NCBI RefSeq assembly: GCF_021284745.1
Contig: NZ_CP089925.1
Location: 62,001 to 126,000 of the forward strand
Source of the DNA: Lysobacter sp. KIS68-7
Lineage (GTDB): Bacteria; Pseudomonadota; Gammaproteobacteria; Xanthomonadales; Xanthomonadaceae
DNA: 64,000 nucleotides
Direction: 5' to 3'
Part shown: one piece after another, positions 5,885 to 16,797 of the stretch
Layout: every line of letters starts with the position of its first letter
How positions within the stretch are numbered: the stretch's first letter is position 1
Translations under genes and position numbers: made by a program
Notes under the pieces: generated by a model
The model's database searches: none
What the model saw: only the letters and a program-made list of their open reading frames with translations
Told to the model about the DNA's origin: nothing

Positions 5885-6205
5885 TCAATGCACGGCGCCG
5901 GCCGCTTCCATCAGGCGTTCGATTTCCGCCGATTGATCTGCCGCGAAGCGCAGGCCCATGTGGTCGACGGCGACCCATGCCACCTCGGTCTGCAGCGTGA
6001 TCGCTTCGCTGTCGGGCAGGTCGAAGAACATGCGCAGTTCGGTGCCCATGGCGGGGGTCCAGCCGGGCGTGAGGTCCACGCGCGCACCGCCCTCGGACAG
6101 GTCGAGGATGAAGCCTTCATGGGGATGGCCGTTGGGTGCGACGACGACGGCGCACAGCACGTTGTGTCGGTAGTGCCTGCGCTTCTCGAGGACGGCAGTC
6201 TCCAT
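5885..6205 (-). CDS. PilZ-domain protein
   Basis: A 106-residue single-domain protein with both parts of the PilZ c-di-GMP-binding signature: RRHYR (9-13, RxxxR) and DLSEGG (35-40, D/NxSxxG). Such proteins act as c-di-GMP receptors controlling motility, secretion or polysaccharide export. It has no signal peptide or membrane segment. It stands alone between gcvP and the response regulator, so its partner is unknown. Confidence 0.88.
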   Translation of the reverse strand: METAVLEKRRHYRHNVLCAVVVAPNGHPHEGFILDLSEGGARVDLTPGWTPAMGTELRMFFDLPDSEAITLQTEVAWVAVDHMGLRFAADQSAEIERLMEAAGAVH

Positions 6206-6333
6206 GGCGCGAAATGCTAGCGCGCCGGGCGTTGGCGTCGTGCAAGCGGGGGCGCCCCGGCCATGAGGACGCCCTGCGGCTGACCAACGGCAGGCCGCGG
6301 CCGAAGGACGGTCCGCTGGCCGGGTCGGACGGA

Positions 6334-6363
6334 GGCCGCGTTGCGCAGTGCAGCAACGCGGCC
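6334..6363 (-). terminator. Strong hairpin after gcvP
   Basis: An 11-bp perfect stem (6334-6344 with 6353-6363, loop of 8) lies 11 bases beyond the gcvP stop. There is no T-run on the minus strand, so it may be a 3' protective hairpin or factor-assisted terminator rather than a classical intrinsic one. Confidence 0.45.
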
Positions 6364-6373
6364 CGTCGGGGTC

Positions 6374-9229
<2,856 letters not shown>

Positions 9230-9254
9230 CGGGGGCGCCTTCGTAGGATTCGAG

Positions 9255-9473
9255 AGCGCCCCATCTGTCTATTCGCCTGAGAGCGTTACTCCTTCGGCGG
9301 GCCGAAAGCGGTGTCGCTGGCAGGTGCCGCGCTACCGGAGGGGGAGGAGCCCGGGAGGCACGGCGGTGCGAGACCGTCGGTCACTTTTCAGATTGTGTGC
9401 GCCGCGAGGTCCTTTTGCCTGAGAGTTTCCGGGGCGGTTGCTCCTTCGGCGCCGGCGTCGGCCGGTCTCTCCC
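9255..9473 (-). promoter_or_regulatory. Tandem glycine riboswitch of gcvP
   Basis: Read on the minus strand, aptamer 1 spans about 9473-9380: P1 pairs GAGACC (9470-9465) with GGTCTC (9385-9380), and it contains the conserved GCCGAAGGAGCAA and AAACTCTCAGGCAAAAGGAC. Aptamer 2 spans about 9353-9255: P1 pairs AGCGC with GCGCT, and it contains GCCGAAGGAGTAA and CTCTCAGGCGAATAGACAGA. The two are about 26 bases apart, and the second ends about 25 bases before the gcvP ATG. Known tandem glycine riboswitches of gcv genes switch expression on with glycine. Confidence 0.93.
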
Positions 9474-9562
9474 AAGCGGCGATGCTGCAGGAAAGCGCGC
9501 AAATGGTCTCATGCGCGCCCCGGCCGGGCAAACCGACGCGGCGGTCCCCACGCACGGCCGCC

Positions 9563-9568
9563 TATAAT
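9563..9568 (+). promoter_or_regulatory. Probable -10 box of ispB
   Basis: A perfect TATAAT followed by a C/G-rich stretch lies 35 bases before the ispB GTG. No good TTGACA-like -35 is present at 17 bases. The region 9474-9562 between this and the riboswitch must also hold the divergent gcvP promoter, which I cannot place. Confidence 0.55.
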
Positions 9569-9602
9569 CCCGCCCTCTTCAGCCCACACACGCCTCCCAC
9601 AC

Positions 9603-10598
9603 GTGAACGCAGCCCCCAGCCACGTCCTGCCCGACCTGCCCACCATCCAGGCCCTGGCGCGCGAGGACATGGCGGCGGTCGATGCGCTCATCCGGCGCCG
9701 GCTCGCGTCCGATGTGGTCCTCATCAACCAGGTCAGCGAATACATCATCGGGGCCGGCGGCAAGCGCCTGCGTCCGATGCTGCTGCTGCTTGCCGCGCAG
9801 GCCCTCGGCCATCGCGGGCCGGATGCGCACCAGCTCGCGGCGGTCGTCGAATTCATCCATACGGCGACGTTGCTGCACGACGACGTGGTCGACGAATCCG
9901 ACCTGCGCCGCGGCCGCCGCACGGCGAATGCGGTGTGGGGCAACGCCGCGAGCGTGCTCGTGGGCGACTTCCTGTACTCGCGCAGCTTCCAGCTGATGGT
10001 CGAACTGGATCGCATGGAAGTCATGCGCATCCTCGCCGACACGACCAACCAGATCGCCGAAGGCGAAGTCCTGCAGTTGCTGCACGTGCGCAACCCGGAC
10101 ACCGACGAAGCGGCGTACCTGCGCGTGATCGAGCGCAAGACCGCGGTGCTGTTCGCCGCCGCCACGCGCCTGGGCGCACTGCTCGCCGGCGCCGATGCGA
10201 AGACCTGCGACGCGTTGCACGAGTACGGCCTGCAGCTGGGCTACGCCTTCCAGATCGCCGACGACGTGCTCGACTACGCAGCGGATTCCGATGCACTCGG
10301 CAAGAACCTCGGCGACGACCTCGCCGAAGGCAAGGCCACCCTACCCCTCATCCACGCGATCCTGCACAGCGATACGGCGACGCAGGCCGCGTTGCGCGCG
10401 GCCATCGAACACGGCGACGTCGATGCGATGCCCGCGGTGGTCGCGGCCATCCGCGCGACGGGCGGCCTGGATTACAGCCGTCGCCGCGCGATGGAATTCG
10501 CGGAGGCCGCCGAAGCGGCCATCGCAGGCCTTGCGCCGAATGCCGCCGTGGACGCGCTACGCGGGCTCGCGCGCTACTCGGTCACGCGCGACCACTGA
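9603..10598 (+). CDS. ispB: Octaprenyl (polyprenyl) diphosphate synthase
   Basis: A trans-prenyltransferase that makes the C40-range side chain of ubiquinone. The 331-residue protein has both aspartate-rich motifs: DDVVD (93-97) and DDVLD (220-224), plus GGKRLRP near residue 52. A GTG at 9603 is used because it lies just after the TATAAT box; ATG at 9669 would delete part of the first helix. It converges on the next gene with only six bases between stops. Chain length cannot be read with certainty. Confidence 0.92.
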   Translation: MNAAPSHVLPDLPTIQALAREDMAAVDALIRRRLASDVVLINQVSEYIIGAGGKRLRPMLLLLAAQALGHRGPDAHQLAAVVEFIHTATLLHDDVVDESDLRRGRRTANAVWGNAASVLVGDFLYSRSFQLMVELDRMEVMRILADTTNQIAEGEVLQLLHVRNPDTDEAAYLRVIERKTAVLFAAATRLGALLAGADAKTCDALHEYGLQLGYAFQIADDVLDYAADSDALGKNLGDDLAEGKATLPLIHAILHSDTATQAALRAAIEHGDVDAMPAVVAAIRATGGLDYSRRRAMEFAEAAEAAIAGLAPNAAVDALRGLARYSVTRDH

Positions 10599-10604
10599 TC
10601 GCGA

Positions 10605-11387
10605 TCACGGCGTCGCAAATCGCTCGGCGAAGAACACCCGCATCATCCGCTCGGAACGGCGCGTCGCCAGTTCGTTGTAGACGCAGCCAGGCGGCTTGTT
10701 CGCGGTCGGGATCGCGAAGCAATGCACCGCGCCGCTGAAGTTGACGAACTGCCAGTCCACCTTCGCGGCATTCATTTCGTTTTCGAACGCCGGGATGTCG
10801 GGCCGCGTGCCCTGGTCGTCGGCGCCGTTGAGCACCAGCAAGCTCGCCTTCACCGTGCCGGGTTTGGCAGGCATCGTCGTGTTGAGGCCGCCGTGGAAAG
10901 TGACGACTGCCGCGAGGTCCGCGCCGCTGCGCGCCATCTCCAGCGCGGTCGCGCCGCCGAAGCAGTAACCGATCGCGCCGATCTTCGTGGTGTCGAGCGG
11001 CACGTCCTTTGCGGTCTTCAACACTTCGATCGCCTTGTTCGCTCGCTCGCGCAGCACGGCGCGGTCCGCGTACATCGCCTTGACCTGGGCCTGCGCCTCG
11101 GCGTCGTTCTTCGGACGCACGCCCTTGCCGTACACGTCGGCGAGCAGCACGACGTAATCGTCGCCGGCGATGTGCTTGGCCTTCTCCACGGCCGCGTCGC
11201 TTACGCCCATCCAGTCCGGGACCATGACCACGCCGGGGCGCTTGATCGCATTGGTGTCGTCGTAGACGAGGTAACCGCTGAAGGTGTCCTTGCCCACCTT
11301 CCACTCGACGGGGCGCGCCTGCATTTCCGCATGCGCGGTGGACAGGCCGATGGCGAACAACAGGACGGCGAACAACGTGCGGCGCAT
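10605..11387 (-). CDS. Secreted dienelactone-hydrolase-family protein
   Basis: A 260-residue alpha/beta hydrolase with a Sec signal peptide (MRRTLFAVLLFAIGLSTAHA) and likely periplasmic location. It has the family nucleophile elbow GYCFGG (Cys142), an acidic residue in NGADDQG and the His in AVHCFAIP, completing a Cys-Asp-His triad. The ATG at 11387 follows GGGAGAGAAC. Natural substrate unknown: many members of this family do not act on dienelactones. It is separated from murD2 by a large hairpin. Confidence 0.85.
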   Translation of the reverse strand: MRRTLFAVLLFAIGLSTAHAEMQARPVEWKVGKDTFSGYLVYDDTNAIKRPGVVMVPDWMGVSDAAVEKAKHIAGDDYVVLLADVYGKGVRPKNDAEAQAQVKAMYADRAVLRERANKAIEVLKTAKDVPLDTTKIGAIGYCFGGATALEMARSGADLAAVVTFHGGLNTTMPAKPGTVKASLLVLNGADDQGTRPDIPAFENEMNAAKVDWQFVNFSGAVHCFAIPTANKPPGCVYNELATRRSERMMRVFFAERFATP

Positions 11388-11420
11388 GGCGTTCTCTCCC
11401 TGGAACCGTGGCGGATGGCG

Positions 11421-11462
11421 GTGCAACGTTCGCTGCGCGAGCCTACGCAGCGCACGTTGCAC
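11421..11462 (-). terminator. Long hairpin after murD2
   Basis: Arms of 9 and 7 bp (11421-11429 with 11454-11462; 11431-11437 with 11446-11452) are split by a single mismatch around an 8-base loop. It starts about 10 bases past the murD2 stop. No T-run follows on the minus strand. Confidence 0.45.
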
Positions 11463-11472
11463 GCGCGTGAAG

Positions 11473-12870
11473 TCAGGCGATGCCCAGGCCCGGGATGGCG
11501 CTGATCGCCTCCGGGTCGAACCCCGCCAGTGCTGCGAAATGGCGACCGCGTGCAACGTAATCCTTGTAGGCGCCGAAGCTCGGCGCGCCTGGCGAGAGGA
11601 GCACGACGCCCTCGCCGGCCAGCGCGTCGCGCGCCTGGCGCATGGCATCTTCGAGGTCGCGTGCTTCCGTCAGCACGAATCCGGCTTCGCGCGCGATCGG
11701 CGCGAGGAGCGCATGGATCTTCGGGCCGTTCTGCCCGACGGTGACGATCGCCGCAGGCGCGCGCGTGCGCATCTGGTCGGCGAAGTCGCTCCAGTCGATG
11801 CCGCGATCGTGCCCGCCCGCGATCAGCGCGACGCGCCGGTCGGCGAAACAGGCCAGTGCCGCGAGACTCGCGTGCGGCGTGGTGCTGATCGAATCGTTGA
11901 CATACGCAATGCCGTCGCGCGTGCCGATCGTCTGCAGGCGATGCGGCAACGGACGGAAGCTCGCGGCATGCGCGGCGAGCGGCGCCGCATCCAGGCCCAG
12001 CGCTTCGATCGCCGTGAGCACGGCGCACAGGTTGCCGCGGTTGTGCCGGCCGGGCAGCGGCAGCGACGCGGTGTCGAGCACGCAGGCATCGCCGCGGTAC
12101 AGCGCATCGCCCCGCAGGTGCCAGCCCGCGGGCACGTTGAATGCGCGCACGTCGCTATCGGGCAGCGCAAGCGCGGAAACCGTCGGATCCTCCGCGTTGA
12201 CCACTGCGATGCGCGGCTTCGCATCCGTGAGCAGGCGCAGCTTGTCGGCGACGTACTGCGCCTGTCCGCCATGCCAGTCGAGGTGTTCCGGAAACACATT
12301 CAGCGCGACTGCGACATCCGGGTGTGCGCCGCTGTCGGCGACATCGCCGGTCTGGTAGCTCGACAACTCGATGGCCCAGAACGCGGGCGGATCTGCGACG
12401 TCGAGCAGTTCGAGCAGGGGCAGTCCGATGTTGCCCGCGAGCGCAGTGCGATGGCCGCCGGCGCGCAGCAAGTGCGCGAGCAATGCCGTGGTGGTGCTCT
12501 TGCCCTTCGTGCCGGTCACGCAGATCGTGCGGCCGTGGCCTTGCGCGGCGTGTTCGGCGAACCACAACGCGGTGCCGCCGATGAAACGCGTGCCGCGCGC
12601 CGCGGCGGCGCGGGCTTCATCGCGATACGGGCTGATGCCCGGCGACTTCACGACGACGTCGAACGCGGCAAGCGCGTCGGCATCCACCTGCGTGTTCGCG
12701 ACCAGCAGGGAATCGCCGAGCGCTGCGACTTCCTTCGCTTCCTCGCCGTTGCAGAACAGCGTCAGCGGCAACGACGGCAGGCGCGCGCGCAACGCGCGAT
12801 ACGCCGCGCGCCCTTCGCGGCCCCAGCCCCAGAGGGCGACACGCTGGCCGTCAAGTTGCGAAATGCGCAC
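11473..12870 (-). CDS. murD2: UDP-MurNAc-L-Ala--L-glutamate ligase (MurD2 type)
   Basis: A 465-residue Mur ligase with the ATP loop GTKGKSTTT (120-128) and the later HNRGN segment. By sequence alone it is MurD-like. Its position directly after murL identifies it as the Xanthomonas-type MurD2, which adds L-Glu rather than D-Glu to UDP-MurNAc-L-Ala; MurL then inverts the glutamate. The ATG at 12870 lies inside the murL 3' end (20-base overlap). The L-Glu specificity is inferred from the neighbour and known Xanthomonas enzymes; a plain D-Glu MurD is the alternative. Confidence 0.87.
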
Positions 12871-14209
12871 GCAGGCTGTCCCACAGCGCGGGCGGAATGC
12901 GGTGCTCGTCGTCGATCTGCAGCAGCGCGGCGAGTTCGAGCTCCGCCGAATCGAGCTGCGGCCGGATCTCGCGCACGAAGCGTTCGACCAATGCGTCCTC
13001 GCGCCACTCCGGACGTTCGGCCAGCGCGGCCAGCGCCGCGCGCGATTCGCGACCTTCGCCGACGCATTCGAAGGGCTTGTGGTCCTGGAACTCGAGCAAC
13101 GCGTCGTAGCCGGGGATCTGCGCCGGATCGTCGAGCAGGTTGCGCCCGAAGATGCCGACCAGGCGCGGCTTCGACATGAAGGGCGCGAGCGCGAGGAACA
13201 CGAAGTGGCACTTCGGGCAGACGCCGCACCAGCGATTTGCGGGGCGTTCGCCGAGCAGGTGGAAGTTGCGGTTGCAGCTGGAGAAATGCGCGTCGTAGCG
13301 GTCGCTCTTCGCGAACTGGCGCGCGACGGCGAGTTCGCTCAGCGGACGCAACAGGGAGTAGTAATACAGGTCCGCGGCGACATGCGATTGCACGTGCGCG
13401 GCCAGCGCCTGCTCCCACGCCCAGCCCTTCGACCACTGGTGGTTCACCTCACCCGTGCCCGGGATGAGGCTGCCGTAGCTCGCCGAGCGTTCGTTGGAGA
13501 ACACGACCTGGTCGTGGCCGAGCACGATCGCGGCGAACAGCATGATCGCCGAGTTCACGCCGGTCACCGGGATGTGTCCGTTCCAGGCGCCCTGTCGATT
13601 GAACTCGAACAGTTCCGGCGCGAGCGCGCGGCCGATGTTGAGCGTCGGCAGGCCCGTGCGTTCGGCGCAGGCCTTGATCAGCTGCGAACCGCCGATCCAC
13701 GTGACGGTCTGCGAGACACCCAGGGTGCGCAGCGCTTCGATGGAAACGAGCGAATCCTTGCCGCCGCCGATGGCGACGAGCGCATGGCGCTCCAGGCCGA
13801 TCGCGGGCGCCGGTGCTTCGTCGGTCGCCGCATGCGGGAAGTGGATGCGCCCGTGCAGGTGCATGCCGTTGCGATACGCGAATTCGCCGAGGCCGTTGAG
13901 GTAGAACGATTCGAGCAACGCTGCGGTTGCGGCGTCGATCGGTGCGCCTTCGATGCGGATCTCGCCCGGCACCGCGGCCTTGTAATAGCTCACGCCTGCA
14001 AGCAGGTGCAGCAGGCGCAGTGCGCGTTCGGCTGCCGCCGCACGTTGCCCATCGAGCACGAAGGGCGCGCCCGGCAGCGTGATGGTTTCCACCAGCTCCG
14101 GGCCGTCGTCGAACGCATACACCAGGCGCGCGACACCGGTGGTCGCATCGAAGGTGCAACGCACGAAACGGAAGGCGCGGATGGCATCGCGCGAGAAGGT
14201 CCAGCTCAT
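12851..14209 (-). CDS. murL: UDP-MurNAc-L-Ala-L-Glu epimerase (MurL)
   Basis: A 452-residue cytoplasmic protein matching the Xanthomonas MurL family, which epimerises the terminal L-Glu of UDP-MurNAc-L-Ala-L-Glu to D-Glu in an ATP- and Mg-dependent reaction, replacing the MurI/D-Glu route. Visible signatures are a PP-loop-like GGGKDS (148-153) and a cysteine cluster CGVCPKC (Cys328, Cys331, Cys334) that could bind metal. The start at 14209 overlaps the lysAC stop as ATGA, and the 3' end overlaps murD2 by 20 bases, so all three genes are co-translated. Confidence 0.88.
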
Positions 14210-16797
14210 TCGATCGTGTCCTGTGCCGGCAAGGCCCGCAGGTTGTAGGTGCTCGCCATGACCATGCCGTAGGCGCCGGCGTCGGCGACGAGCAGCACGT
14301 CGCCCTCCGCCGTGGCGCGCGGCAGCAGGCGGCTGCGTCCGAGCACGTCGCCGCTTTCGCAGATGGGGCCGACGACGTCGAACGCCGCCATGTCCGCATC
14401 GCCGAAGCGCGAGAGATTGTGGATGCCGTGGTAGGCCTCGTACATCGCCGGGCGCACCAGGGCGTTCATGCCTGCATCGCAACCGACGCGCAGCACGCCG
14501 TCCTTCTCGACGACCTGCGTGGCGTGCAGCAGCAGCGCGCCGCATTCGGCGACGAGGTAGCGGCCGGGTTCGACGGCGAGCGCGAAGCGTGGATAAGCCG
14601 CGCGGATTTCTTCCAGGCCCTCGCGCCATGCGACGAGGTCGAAGTCTTCCGAATCCGGCGTGTAGGCGACCGGCAGGCCCCCACCGATGTCGATCGTCTC
14701 GACCGTGCCGATGGTGTCGGCCAGGCCCGCAAGTTCGGCGTACACGCCGCGCCAGTGGCGCGGATCGTCGATGCCGCTGCCCAGGTGGGCGTGCAGGCCG
14801 GAGATGCGGATGTCGAGCTGGCGCGCGTGTGCGATGAACTCGTCGAAGCGGCCCATCGACAGACCGAACTTCGCCGCGACGCCGCCCGTCTTCACCTTCT
14901 CGTGGTGGCCTTCGCCATGGCCGAGGTCCAGGCGCAGCCACAGCGTGCGGCCGCGGAACACGTCGGGCCAGCGCTGCAGCGCTTCGACGTTGTCGAGCGT
15001 GACGCCGACGCCGCGCGCGAACGCGGCTTCGTATTCGTGCCGCGGCGCGAAGCTCGGCGTGAACAGCACGCGCTGCGGCGAGAGGTCCGGCAACACCGAG
15101 AACACGTGTTCCAGTTCGCCGATCGACACGCACTCCAGGCCGAAGCCTTCGTCGACCAGCGTGCGCAGGATCGCCGGATGCGGATTGGCCTTGATCGCGA
15201 AGAAGCGGCGGTCGATGGCGTCGATGGCCGTGAGTTCGCGTGCGCGGTCGCGCACGGTGTCGAGGTCGTAGGCGTAACGCGGCGTGCCGCGCGATGCGAT
15301 GTCCAGCAGCGCAGCCTGCTTGCCTTCCCACCACTTCGCACGACGCGTGCGGCGCCCATGCGCGATTTCGCGCCAGCTCGGACCGAACACGGTGTCTTCG
15401 AGGACCGGCATCGCACCGCCGCGGATCAGCTCGGCGTGCAGCTGCGGCAGCATGCCGTCCGCATCGGCTTCGTCGATCACGAAGGTGAGGTTGAGGTCGT
15501 TGGACGACTGCGAGATCAGGTGCACGCGCTCCTGGCCGAAGGTCGCCCACACGTCCGACAGCTTGTGCAGCAGCGAACGCATGCCGCGGCCGACGAGCGT
15601 GATCGCCGCGCACGGCGCGATGACCTTCACGCGGCACACTTCGGACAGATCGGCCGACAGGCGTTCCAGCACGTTCGTCGTCACCAGGTTCTCGCTGGGA
15701 TCAAGCGACACGGTGACGTTGGTTTCCGACGAACCGATGAGGTCGACCGACAGGCCATTGCGCTTGAAGCGTTCGAACACATCGGCGAGGAAGCCGACCT
15801 GCTGCCACATGCCGATGCTTTCCATCGACACCAGCACGATGCCGTTGCGGCGGCTGATCGCCTTCACGCCCGGGACCGTCGCCGCGCTCGCATCGATGCG
15901 CGTGCCCGGCAAGTCGGGGCGTTCGGTGTCGAGGATGGCCATCGCCACGCCGGCATCGCGGCACGGGGCGATCGAACGCGGATGCAGCACCTTCGCACCG
16001 GTGGTCGCGATTTCCTGCGCTTCGGCGTAATCCAGGCGCGTGAGCAGGCGTGCGTCGGGCACTTCGCGCGGGTTCGCGCTGAACATGCCGGGGACGTCGG
16101 TCCAGATTTCCACGCGCCGCGCATCGAGCAGCGCGCCGAAATAGGCAGCGGAGGTATCCGAACCGCCGCGGCCGAGCACCGCGGTGCCGCCGTCGGCATG
16201 GCGCGCGATGAAGCCTTGCGTGACGAGCAATTCGGTCGGCTGCTTCGCGAAGCGTTCCTGCAACGCGGCATCCGACGTGCAACGGCAGTTCACCGACAAA
16301 CGCTGCGCCCACGCGCTCGCGTTCGGCAGCGACACGGCGTCGAGCCAGTCGCGCGCATCGCACCAGCCGATGTCGCGGCCTTGCGTGCGCAGGTAGGCCA
16401 CACCGAGCGTGGAGGACAACAGTTCGCCTTGCGCCAGGACTTCGGCCTGCCAGTCGAGCGCGCGCGTCGCAGCGCGGGCGTCGCTGCCGAGCGCGCGCAA
16501 CCCACCCAGGCGCTCACCCAACACGGCATCCGGATCGAGGTCGAGTTCATGGCAGAAGGCGCGATGGCGATCGACCAGCGCATCGATGCGCGCGCTGAAA
16601 TCCTCGCCCGCCGCGGAGTACGCGATCGCCTGCAATTCATTGGTCACGCCCGACAGGGCCGAGACCACGACGAGCACGCGTACGCCTTCATCGCGCGCGC
16701 GCTCGGCGGCCAGGCGGCCGATCGTGTCCCATCGATTGCGCCGCGACACCGAGGTGCCGCCGAACTTGAGTACCACCCACCGCCGTGACTGCACCAC
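14206..16797 (-). CDS. lysAC: Bifunctional aspartate kinase / diaminopimelate decarboxylase
   Basis: An 863-residue fusion of the first and last enzymes of lysine synthesis. Residues 1-460 are aspartate kinase (KFGGTS at 11-16, TDVPGMFSANPR, two ACT regions around 320-460 for feedback control). Residues about 480-863 are PLP-dependent DAP decarboxylase with Lys536 (FFAIKANPH), HLGSGI and the catalytic CESGD. GTG at 16797 is used, with GGGGA upstream; GTG at 16794 is also possible. The fusion is known in Xanthomonadaceae. First gene of the lysAC-murL-murD2 operon. Confidence 0.95.
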   Translation of the reverse strand: MVQSRRWVVLKFGGTSVSRRNRWDTIGRLAAERARDEGVRVLVVVSALSGVTNELQAIAYSAAGEDFSARIDALVDRHRAFCHELDLDPDAVLGERLGGLRALGSDARAATRALDWQAEVLAQGELLSSTLGVAYLRTQGRDIGWCDARDWLDAVSLPNASAWAQRLSVNCRCTSDAALQERFAKQPTELLVTQGFIARHADGGTAVLGRGGSDTSAAYFGALLDARRVEIWTDVPGMFSANPREVPDARLLTRLDYAEAQEIATTGAKVLHPRSIAPCRDAGVAMAILDTERPDLPGTRIDASAATVPGVKAISRRNGIVLVSMESIGMWQQVGFLADVFERFKRNGLSVDLIGSSETNVTVSLDPSENLVTTNVLERLSADLSEVCRVKVIAPCAAITLVGRGMRSLLHKLSDVWATFGQERVHLISQSSNDLNLTFVIDEADADGMLPQLHAELIRGGAMPVLEDTVFGPSWREIAHGRRTRRAKWWEGKQAALLDIASRGTPRYAYDLDTVRDRARELTAIDAIDRRFFAIKANPHPAILRTLVDEGFGLECVSIGELEHVFSVLPDLSPQRVLFTPSFAPRHEYEAAFARGVGVTLDNVEALQRWPDVFRGRTLWLRLDLGHGEGHHEKVKTGGVAAKFGLSMGRFDEFIAHARQLDIRISGLHAHLGSGIDDPRHWRGVYAELAGLADTIGTVETIDIGGGLPVAYTPDSEDFDLVAWREGLEEIRAAYPRFALAVEPGRYLVAECGALLLHATQVVEKDGVLRVGCDAGMNALVRPAMYEAYHGIHNLSRFGDADMAAFDVVGPICESGDVLGRSRLLPRATAEGDVLLVADAGAYGMVMASTYNLRALPAQDTIE

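Follow-up and report, generated by a model that had tools for sequence, protein, structure and literature searches.

In a bacterium without a murI match, our analysis assigns to the lysAC-murL-murD2 locus, with a probability of roughly 0.85, the making of residue 2 of the peptidoglycan stem peptide and the supply of residue 3, with a QueC-like MurL and an arrangement of shared supply. The locus lies in a 64-kb window, by which we mean the whole stretch of DNA that was analyzed, within a host genome consisting of a single contig of 3.25 Mb. The overlaps of 4 and 20 bases that the initial annotation had claimed were borne out by the reading frames, all on the minus strand (Table 1); the starts of the three genes were picked by a mechanical rule rather than mapped. 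An identical 4-base spacing between lysAC and murL was found in two fetched congeners (L181 and L182), and among the 59 fetched loci of the host family, murL and murD2 were spaced at -20 in 55 (56 of 60 including the window); murL-murD2 is the tight unit of the locus. The gene row is real, widely kept among relatives and made of known parts, that is, a conserved neighborhood of known enzymes. Scanning the locus for promoters and terminators returned nothing above chance (0 promoter-like sites, compared to a mean of 0.4 in shuffles).

Table 1. Positions, in window coordinates, of the genes, overlaps and protein features at the locus
Feature	Position	Strand	Description
lysAC	14206-16797	-	863 aa, GTG start, fused aspartate kinase/DAP decarboxylase
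murL	12851-14209	-	452 aa, ATG start
murD2	11473-12870	-	465 aa, GTG start
lysAC stop/murL start overlap	14206-14209	-	ATGA, 4 bases
murL/murD2 overlap	12851-12870	-	20 bases
LysAC domains (Pfam)			AA_kinase, residues 7-289; ACT, 399-456; DAP decarboxylase, 530-841
LysAC lysine-site segment	15724-15810	-	residues 330-358, by alignment to E. coli AKIII 2j0w
MurL PP-loop-type (ATP pyrophosphatase) motif	13751-13768	-	GGGKDS, residues 148-153
MurL Cys312, Cys328, Cys331, Cys334	13208-13276	-	aligned with four QueC cysteines

In the working that we propose, MurD2 would add L-Glu to the cell-wall precursor, and MurL would invert this terminal L-Glu to D-Glu, spending ATP to AMP, a reaction demonstrated by others in X. 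oryzae and assigned here from sequence. LysAC would supply all the aspartyl phosphate that the host genome appears to make, and hence be the source of meso-DAP, part of which it would convert to lysine. The position of lysAC beside murL-murD2 would thus place the supplier of residue 3 next to the makers of residue 2, and in the host lineage the three genes are probably carried on one mRNA with translational coupling.

The enzymes of the glutamate route were readily recognized. MurL scored 826.8 bits against NF041275 (cut-off 700), a family matched in 191 of the 200 genomes searched in the order and above the cut-off in 82, and MurD2 scored 303 bits against TIGR01087 (MurD; cut-off 211.95). Residues E195 and R356 of MurD2 correspond to E197 and R358 of the X. 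oryzae enzyme, and I328 sits at K319 of E. coli; the diagnostic residues are E/I/R, compared to D/K/K in E. coli (D182, K319 and K348). The E/R pair is the one reported as L-Glu-selecting, and we infer that MurD2 prefers L-Glu. The initial identification of MurL and of an MurD2 with L-Glu-type residues therefore stands on both family cut-offs and on E195/R356. The E/I/R combination occurred in 143 of 150 distinct MurD sequences, a set drawn from loci also holding MurL, plus L155, that contains one broken row (L117) and in which double counting is possible for any genome retrieved two times with different starts. Four sequences were left out of this count, namely, L003 and L005, which are other Mur ligases of the host genome, and L160 and L165, which are canonical-type MurDs; an earlier count had comprised 150 rows, including E. 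coli, the window and these four.

Two marks of the pathway accompany MurL: its gene is overlapped by murD2, and the single-contig host genome, searched for murI and a canonical murD as the initial annotation had proposed, gave no murI match. A single MurD passed the cut-off in that genome, with no second murD above it, and no D-amino-acid transaminase exceeded its cut-off. Since all three were missing at these thresholds, D-Glu most likely comes from MurD2 and MurL. The best transaminase match (125.9 bits; cut-off 277.45) was rejected as IlvE, which passes its own cut-off, and the second match reached 29.2 bits. In one relative (G119), murL is absent between lysAC and murD2, murI is present, and the chirality residue of MurD2 is changed from R to K. 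This genome is a candidate for a reversal of Glu chirality in nature, and as such it would predict which MurD residue matters for that chirality.

Comparison of gene order across the Xanthomonadales, another step suggested at the outset, showed that linkage of lysAC to murL is common but not universal. In all 36 sampled genomes of the host family, the two genes share a contig and a strand and are separated by less than 3 kb. Across the order, adjacency was seen in 92 of 129 testable genomes from eight families, among the matches listed. Testable genomes were those of the 200 searched with coordinates of both genes among the matches listed (149 and 150 genomes, respectively); the remaining 71 had one or both matches outside those listed, or no match. 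Linkage was observed in 7 of 12 sampled families (f1, f2, f3, f4, f5, f11 and f12) and in part of f9. No adjacency was seen in f6, f7, f8, f10 and most of f9, although testable genomes were scarce in f6, f8 and f10, and a neighbor may go unseen where a contig ends. With seven families and part of an eighth showing it, the linkage is no accident of the host genome; equally, the link to lysine is not needed, because the overlap is not conserved and several families show no adjacency.

Plain inheritance of gene order, with ancestral neighbors kept without selection for coupling, could account for this pattern, and we give it somewhat less than an even chance. It is consistent with the families lacking linkage, with the occurrence of murL-murD2 away from lysAC both in other families and beyond the order (where all 7 fetched loci had murL standing without lysAC), and with four f11 loci (L037, L038, L040 and L043) in which murD2 is not beside lysAC-murL. 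The breadth of the adjacency over eight families speaks against it, as does the arrangement of loci with wide gaps. The extremes of lysAC-murL spacing were an overlap of 8 bases and a gap of 978 bases; in several Pseudoxanthomonas and Luteimonas genomes, an extra open frame lies between the two genes. An intervening frame of at least 144 aa was present in 30 of 38 wide-gap loci (some representing the same genome twice), and in 24 it starts inside lysAC and stops 4 bases into murL, a pattern suggesting that, at such loci, it is favorable for murL to be coupled to the gene upstream of it. Some relatives carry a gene for a small hydrophobic protein between lysAC and murL.

The fused enzyme itself matched NF006515 with 1364.7 bits (cut-off 802) over residues 3 to 862, with kinase and decarboxylase in one frame, and its best-scoring solved relatives were lysine-sensitive aspartokinase 3 (2j0w) and a DAP decarboxylase (2yxx). 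It is the only aspartokinase and the only DAP decarboxylase found in the host genome, supporting the earlier claim that LysAC both starts DAP supply and drains DAP to lysine. One further match to the LysAC profile (43 bits) fell inside a 687-aa frame that we take to be the arginine decarboxylase SpeA. In-frame TGA matches appeared in lysAC of several genomes; those in lysAC of G015 and in murL of three genomes were considered as selenocysteine codons and rejected, since the profile match had simply taken in the ordinary stop at the end of the gene.

By sequence comparison, LysAC largely keeps the AKIII-type lysine site of E. coli, and lysine therefore probably inhibits the enzyme. Counting residue 325 among the lysine-binding positions, as we assume it should be, the signature at positions 318, 321, 324, 325, 338, 339, 340, 344, 345 and 346 reads MQFLSVDSSE, compared to MSFLSVDTSE in E. 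coli, and the compared binding residues are kept except for S321, which is Q. Residues 318, 321, 324, 338 to 340, 345 and 346 are those given as lysine binding in Table 2 of PMC8092979. Of 19 single-kinase relatives, 2 have Ala at residue 345 (E. coli numbering); the substitution S345L is reported to render an E. coli aspartokinase insensitive to lysine (PMC10464499).

The initial annotation had gone further: in its reading the operon is regulatory, and D-Glu incorporation is kept in fixed proportion to DAP supply by co-translation together with feedback from lysine. We regard this as unlikely, although the overlaps in the host genome, the adjacency in all 36 sampled members of its family and the presence of LysAC as sole aspartokinase in all four sampled genomes of the genus would fit it. 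So would an association between overlap and kinase number: lysAC and murL overlapped in 17 of 20 single-aspartokinase genomes compared to 16 of 40 two-kinase genomes (60 family loci; Fisher P = 0.001), and the association persisted in genomes of 3.6 Mb or less (17/20 versus 6/20) and in a two-trait Markov test on the tree (likelihood ratio test, 12.6; P = 0.014, an asymptotic value from a rough fit). However, this comparison was post hoc and is kept as a hint only. The contrast was sharper in the first 40 loci (17/20 versus 4/20), before a further 20 two-kinase genomes joined the sample; single-kinase genomes have a median size of only 2.95 Mb, compared to 3.65 Mb for the others; and the gene starts were rule picked. 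The sample covered 20 of 34 single-kinase and 40 of 85 other genomes, taken from listed coordinates, with a second batch made up partly of congeners.

Fixed proportion fails as a general rule, given the variable spacing, the frames that sometimes intervene and the murL-murD2 pairs standing without lysAC. Nor does lysine feedback on the glutamate route follow from a shared polycistron: inhibition of the kinase would have no path to MurL or MurD2 by way of a common mRNA, because lysine would act on the LysAC protein and not on the synthesis of its neighbors, and no lysine riboswitch exceeded the Rfam threshold within the 64-kb window. The sole Rfam match in the window was a glycine riboswitch. 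What survives of the proposed coupling is the linkage of the lysine fusion to the glutamate genes in part of the order; the overlap varies, and some families are without the linkage. We read the locus as a shared-supply arrangement and not a feedback circuit acting on MurL and MurD2.

As for MurL, we think it quite likely that this epimerase belongs to the carboxylate-activating enzymes of the QueC family: PP-loop adenylation, the step that in QueC comes before amide formation, would here make the alpha carbon of the peptide-bound L-Glu more acidic and power a one-way flip from L to D, in a route that lineages can leave, as the murL-less, murI-bearing genome with the R-to-K change would illustrate. 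MurL looks like the QueC-family PP-loop enzymes on four counts: its motif, its four cysteines, the profile alignment and the predicted fold. The GGGKD loop (G148 to D152) is invariant in 26 diverse MurLs, as are C312, C328, C331 and C334, in register with the four C-terminal cysteines of the QueC family, presumably a zinc site. An hhalign comparison with E. coli QueC covered 173 columns (E = 5.3e-4; probability, 30.5%), placing GGGKD on the SGGQDS of QueC with the loop and the cysteines in register, whereas two control proteins reached probabilities of 0.2% (E = 0.25) and 0.1% (E = 0.54); a profile match to the PP-loop enzyme TtuA fell at the GGGKDS motif (E = 0.0025). With an AlphaFold2 model (mean pLDDT, 82.5; low confidence at residues 210-212, 240-247, 253-260, 313-324 and 379-383), the first six PDB matches in Foldseek were QatC, QueC, a predicted tRNA methyltransferase subunit of M. 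jannaschii, TtuA, Cap9 and QueC, those to QatC, QueC, TtuA and Cap9 having E values of 7.3e-4 to 4.9e-3 (one below 0.001), with a TM score of 0.40 for the match with the best E value.

Pfam gave no family for the window MurL and, over the 26 MurLs, weak matches that included DUF6395 (3 of 26; best E = 0.015), zinc ribbon (3), ThiI (2) and PAPS reductase (1); a single-sequence search of solved structures found nothing better than E = 0.38, and a PHROGs search returned nothing. QueC makes a modified tRNA base, and conversion of ATP to AMP is the usual chemistry of PP-loop enzymes, which the likeness of MurL to this family fits. Convergence of the loop and cysteines in a protein unrelated to QueC, for which the missing Pfam family and the weak whole-chain similarity could be cited, is improbable, since motif, cysteines and their order, the 173-column alignment and the Foldseek ranking agree on one family while the two controls do not, and the ATP-to-AMP chemistry reported for MurL is that of PP-loop enzymes. 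As a QueC-family PP-loop enzyme, MurL would adenylate the alpha-carboxylate of the terminal L-Glu; the activated residue would lose its alpha proton and regain it on the other face, and hydrolysis would then free the D product. This opens a fold and active-site hypothesis, with single testable residues, for an enzyme whose mechanism had been called unclear.

Compared to the canonical MurI and MurD route, with murI present and D/K/K in the ligase, the host instead lacks a murI match and carries E195/I328/R356. It shares the two enzymes, the diagnostic residues and the absence of murI with the MurD2-MurL pathway of X. oryzae (XOO_1320 and XOO_1319; PMC8788868 and PMC5808125), where the gene numbers are likewise adjacent; the host differs from that description in having lysAC immediately upstream with a 4-base overlap, and the two reviews, searched by word, contain no mention of lysA, aspartokinase (aspartate kinase) or diaminopimelate decarboxylase. 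LysAC is the same NF006515 fusion as described for Xylella fastidiosa (PMC555942). In contrast to 85 of 119 sampled family members, which have at least two aspartokinase matches, the host has LysAC alone and so belongs to those bacteria whose whole aspartate family and meso-DAP seem to depend on a single fused enzyme, and this makes the regulation of that enzyme by lysine a real question. X. oryzae MurL catalyzes an ATP-dependent, one-way L-to-D epimerization yielding AMP, and it was described as being without known domains, with adenylation proposed but no fold (PMC8788868). With the QueC/QatC/Cap9 PP-loop family, MurL shares the GGxDS loop and four in-register cysteines, and its predicted fold appears similar. 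QueC uses ATP to activate a carboxylic acid (PMC13279940), an activation that we propose MurL may share. MurL is about twice as long (452 versus 231 aa), takes UDP-MurNAc-dipeptide as its substrate and would end in epimerization and hydrolysis, whereas QueC ends in amide formation.

The three genes lie on the minus strand (see the table), and NCBIfam assigned the names LysAC, MurL and MurD, each above the family cut-off. The overlaps claimed in the initial annotation, of 4 bases between lysAC and murL (ATGA) and of 20 bases between murL and murD2, were borne out. By alignment, Glu195 and Arg356 of this MurD2 correspond to Glu197 and Arg358 of X. oryzae MurD2 and to Asp182 and Lys348 of E. coli MurD, and Ile328 stands at the place of E. 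coli Lys319. The MurD2 changes E197D and R358K were each reported to alter Glu stereospecificity, with a full switch in the double mutant (PMC8788868).

The genome is one contig of 3,251,132 bases (completeness 99.97%), and the closest named MurLs, among the matches listed, were those of Lysobacter gilvus, L. dokdonensis and L. lactosilyticus (86-88% identity). The expected lack of murI and of a second, canonical murD held across the whole genome: the profile search gave no murI match, and the one murD over cut-off was the murD2 of this locus. The top D-amino-acid-transaminase match was an IlvE. A search for aspartokinase-family members at E up to 1e-10 found LysAC alone; the LysAC profile itself had one further match, of 43 bits, within a 687-aa frame that we take to be the arginine decarboxylase SpeA. 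Homoserine dehydrogenase is encoded by a separate 347-aa frame, which overlaps a cystathionine gamma-synthase gene, and it carries no kinase domain, which leaves LysAC as apparently the sole aspartokinase of the genome. LysAC thus appears to carry the entire aspartate-family flux, meso-DAP included. A single aspartokinase match was likewise found in all four sampled genomes of the genus and in 34 of the 119 of the family, the 34 including a few incomplete drafts and one genome (G677) whose match, at 356 bits, looks like the other kinase rather than LysAC.

Profile searches of 200 genomes of the order gave a MurL match in 191 (82 above the curated cut-off), murD above cut-off in 191, fused LysAC above cut-off in 174 and murI above cut-off in three, with weaker murI-family matches (at most 72.6 bits) in 54 more. 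Nine genomes gave no MurL match. Two of them, G119 and G019, have murI above cut-off; the remaining seven, drafts in 110-680 contigs, also gave poor top murD matches (E 1e-24 to 1e-40), so that their assemblies may lack the murL-murD2 stretch. One MurL-bearing draft has a second, canonical-type murD (L165, G062:C190; 418 bits) on a 3.9-kb contig, with Asp, Lys and Lys at the places of X. oryzae E197, E. coli K319 and X. oryzae R358 (D-K-K); this may be contamination.

The proposed gene order was confirmed for only part of the order. Among the matches listed, coordinates for both lysAC and murL were available in 129 of the 200 genomes, and the two were same-direction neighbours in 92 of these, a count from which true neighbours on different contigs can be hidden. 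Linkage was complete in sampled families f1 (36/36), f12 (33/33), f11 (8/8), f3 (8/8) and f2 (3/3) and in the single genomes of f4 and f5, partial in f9 (2/18), and not seen in f6 (0/2), f7 (0/15), f8 (0/3) or f10 (0/1); of the loci fetched later, those of three further f4 genomes and two further f9 genomes (L162, L163, L164, L166, L167) were linked too. In four f11 loci (L037, L038, L040, L043) lysAC and murL lie together, with the genome's murD2 on a different contig. Loci retrieved from f7, f8, f9 and f10 (L047-L050) have murL adjoining murD2 without lysAC. In a sample of 398 genomes of the phylum, MurL was found in 20, ten of them outside the order; murD2 adjoins murL in six of the seven such outside loci that were fetched, the seventh reaching a contig end, and lysAC is present in none. 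In the MurL tree, families with and without the linkage are intermixed. Under the chosen rooting, MurLs from two other families of the phylum (L148, L154) nest within those of the order. This nesting suggests MurL transfer, and the tree of this sample does not separate gains, losses and transfers of the linkage.

The 20-base murL/murD2 overlap recurs in 56 of 60 loci of the family, the window included, and lysAC/murL spacing in the same loci ranges from -8 to 505 bases, the two genes overlapping in 33. The largest spacing was 978 bases (L064). Of the 38 loci in which lysAC and murL are 150-1300 bases apart, a few of them from a genome counted twice, 30 have an open frame of 144-177 codons between the two genes, tallied as open frames and not as one homologous family; 24 of these begin within lysAC and end 4 bases into murL. 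The encoded proteins (GRAVY 0.57-1.2, with 3-5 hydrophobic stretches under a simple hydropathy criterion) are, from this hydrophobicity, probably membrane proteins. Pfam searches with four of them gave nothing above cut-off and one weak TctB match (E 0.065). Three loci with gaps of 189-198 bases (L011, L115, L207) have a 69-72 aa frame that looks like a remnant, and the window has no intervening frame.

Of the lysine-binding residues of E. coli AKIII that we compared by alignment, all are kept in LysAC except S321, which is Q. M318, F324, D340 and E346 (E. coli AKIII numbering) are kept in 19/19 fetched single-kinase relatives, and residue 345 is Ala in two of the 19; in E. coli, S345L confers insensitivity to lysine (PMC10464499). 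Since the site is largely kept, lysine inhibition of LysAC is plausible. That such feedback would also steer MurL and MurD2 does not follow, because inhibition of the protein leaves the output of the other genes on the mRNA unchanged and Rfam found no lysine riboswitch in the window. We thus read the neighbourhood as shared supply. The lysAC/murL overlap was more frequent in genomes with LysAC as their sole aspartokinase (17/20 vs 16/40; 17/20 vs 4/20 in an earlier, smaller sample), and the excess persists in genomes up to 3.6 Mb (17/20 vs 6/20). A two-trait test, post hoc and sampled from the matches listed, gave an LRT of 12.6 (asymptotic p about 0.014); as a sign of coupling, the association is a hint. 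Elsewhere in the window, a glycine riboswitch (Rfam RF00504, 63.2 bits vs a cut-off of 32) lies directly upstream of a 951-aa frame.

G119, of family f9, has no MurL match. Among 43 genomes of that family it alone has murI above cut-off (220 bits), and this murI carries both catalytic-cysteine motifs, judged by eye. The murD2 of G119 follows lysAC at a distance of 51-87 bases, according to which start is taken, with no murL between, whereas in its congener G020 (L156) murL lies between them. The ligase of G119 is E-I-K, and that of G020 and most others E-I-R. The R-to-K change at this chirality residue reportedly alters stereospecificity (PMC8788868), and G119 is a candidate for a natural reversal of Glu chirality. 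Contamination is an unlikely source of its murI, since the murI and lysAC-murD2 stretches are equal in composition (GC 0.495 and 0.497; tetranucleotide r 0.962, vs 0.81-0.82 against the congener). Asp at the E197 place also occurs in three MurL-bearing genomes (L157, L162, L163), so that E197D alone is no marker of the D-Glu route. In G019 the MurD is D-K-K. The third genome with murI above cut-off, G126, also has MurL and an E-I-R MurD2, an apparent redundancy.

Features of the window and of the compared loci
Feature	Position	Strand	Locus
lysAC	14206-16797	-	window
murL	12851-14209	-	window
murD2	11473-12870	-	window
lysAC/murL overlap, ATGA	14209-14206	-	window
murL/murD2 overlap	12870-12851	-	window
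Glycine riboswitch	9397-9484	-	window
Frame that reads as glycine cleavage P protein	6374-9229	-	window
Homoserine dehydrogenase without kinase domain	G000:C1:154580-155164	-	L180
G119 lysAC	8363-10957		L155
G119 murD2	11009-12415		L155
G119 murI	5972-6787		L159
G126 murI	7615-8505	-	L158
G126 lysAC-murL-murD2			L205
150-171 aa hydrophobic-protein frame between lysAC and murL, in most cases overlapping each of them			L200, L201, L206, L208, L210, L212, L214
Same kind of frame, named loci			e.g. L073, L080, L103

MurL was described as having no known conserved domains (PMC8788868). In a set of 26 MurLs, the others 29-63% identical to that of the window, G148-G149-G150-K151-D152 and C312, C328, C331 and C334 are invariant by alignment, and a KPFECVG segment is invariant or nearly so. 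Their profile matches the PP-loop protein TtuA at the GGKDS loop (E 0.0025). Against E. coli QueC, hhalign aligned 173 columns with the loop and the four cysteines in register (E 5.3e-4, probability 30.5%), and controls with a PhzF-family protein of the window and E. coli YbaE gave 0.2% and 0.1%. An AlphaFold2 model (45 sequences, mean pLDDT 82.5) had QatC (7.3e-4) and QueC (1.8e-3) as top PDB matches, followed by an M. jannaschii protein, TtuA, Cap9 and a second QueC. The terms lysA, aspartokinase, aspartate kinase, diaminopimelate decarboxylase and PP-loop are absent from the texts of PMC8788868 and PMC5808125, as is QueC from the latter. In a literature search that most subscription papers fall outside, these two alone mention MurL and MurD2 along with Xanthomonas, and they alone mention XOO_1319. 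No paper among the matches listed names MurL with QueC; one apparent co-mention of MurL with PP-loop was rejected, the string being 'Mur_ligase'. MurL requires ATP, forms AMP and acts one-way, and adenylation of the alpha-carboxylate has been proposed (PMC8788868). QueC uses ATP to activate a carboxylic acid (PMC13279940), and the likeness of MurL to QueC thus offers a concrete mechanism, in which MurL would adenylate the alpha-carboxylate, then epimerise the residue and finally hydrolyse the product.
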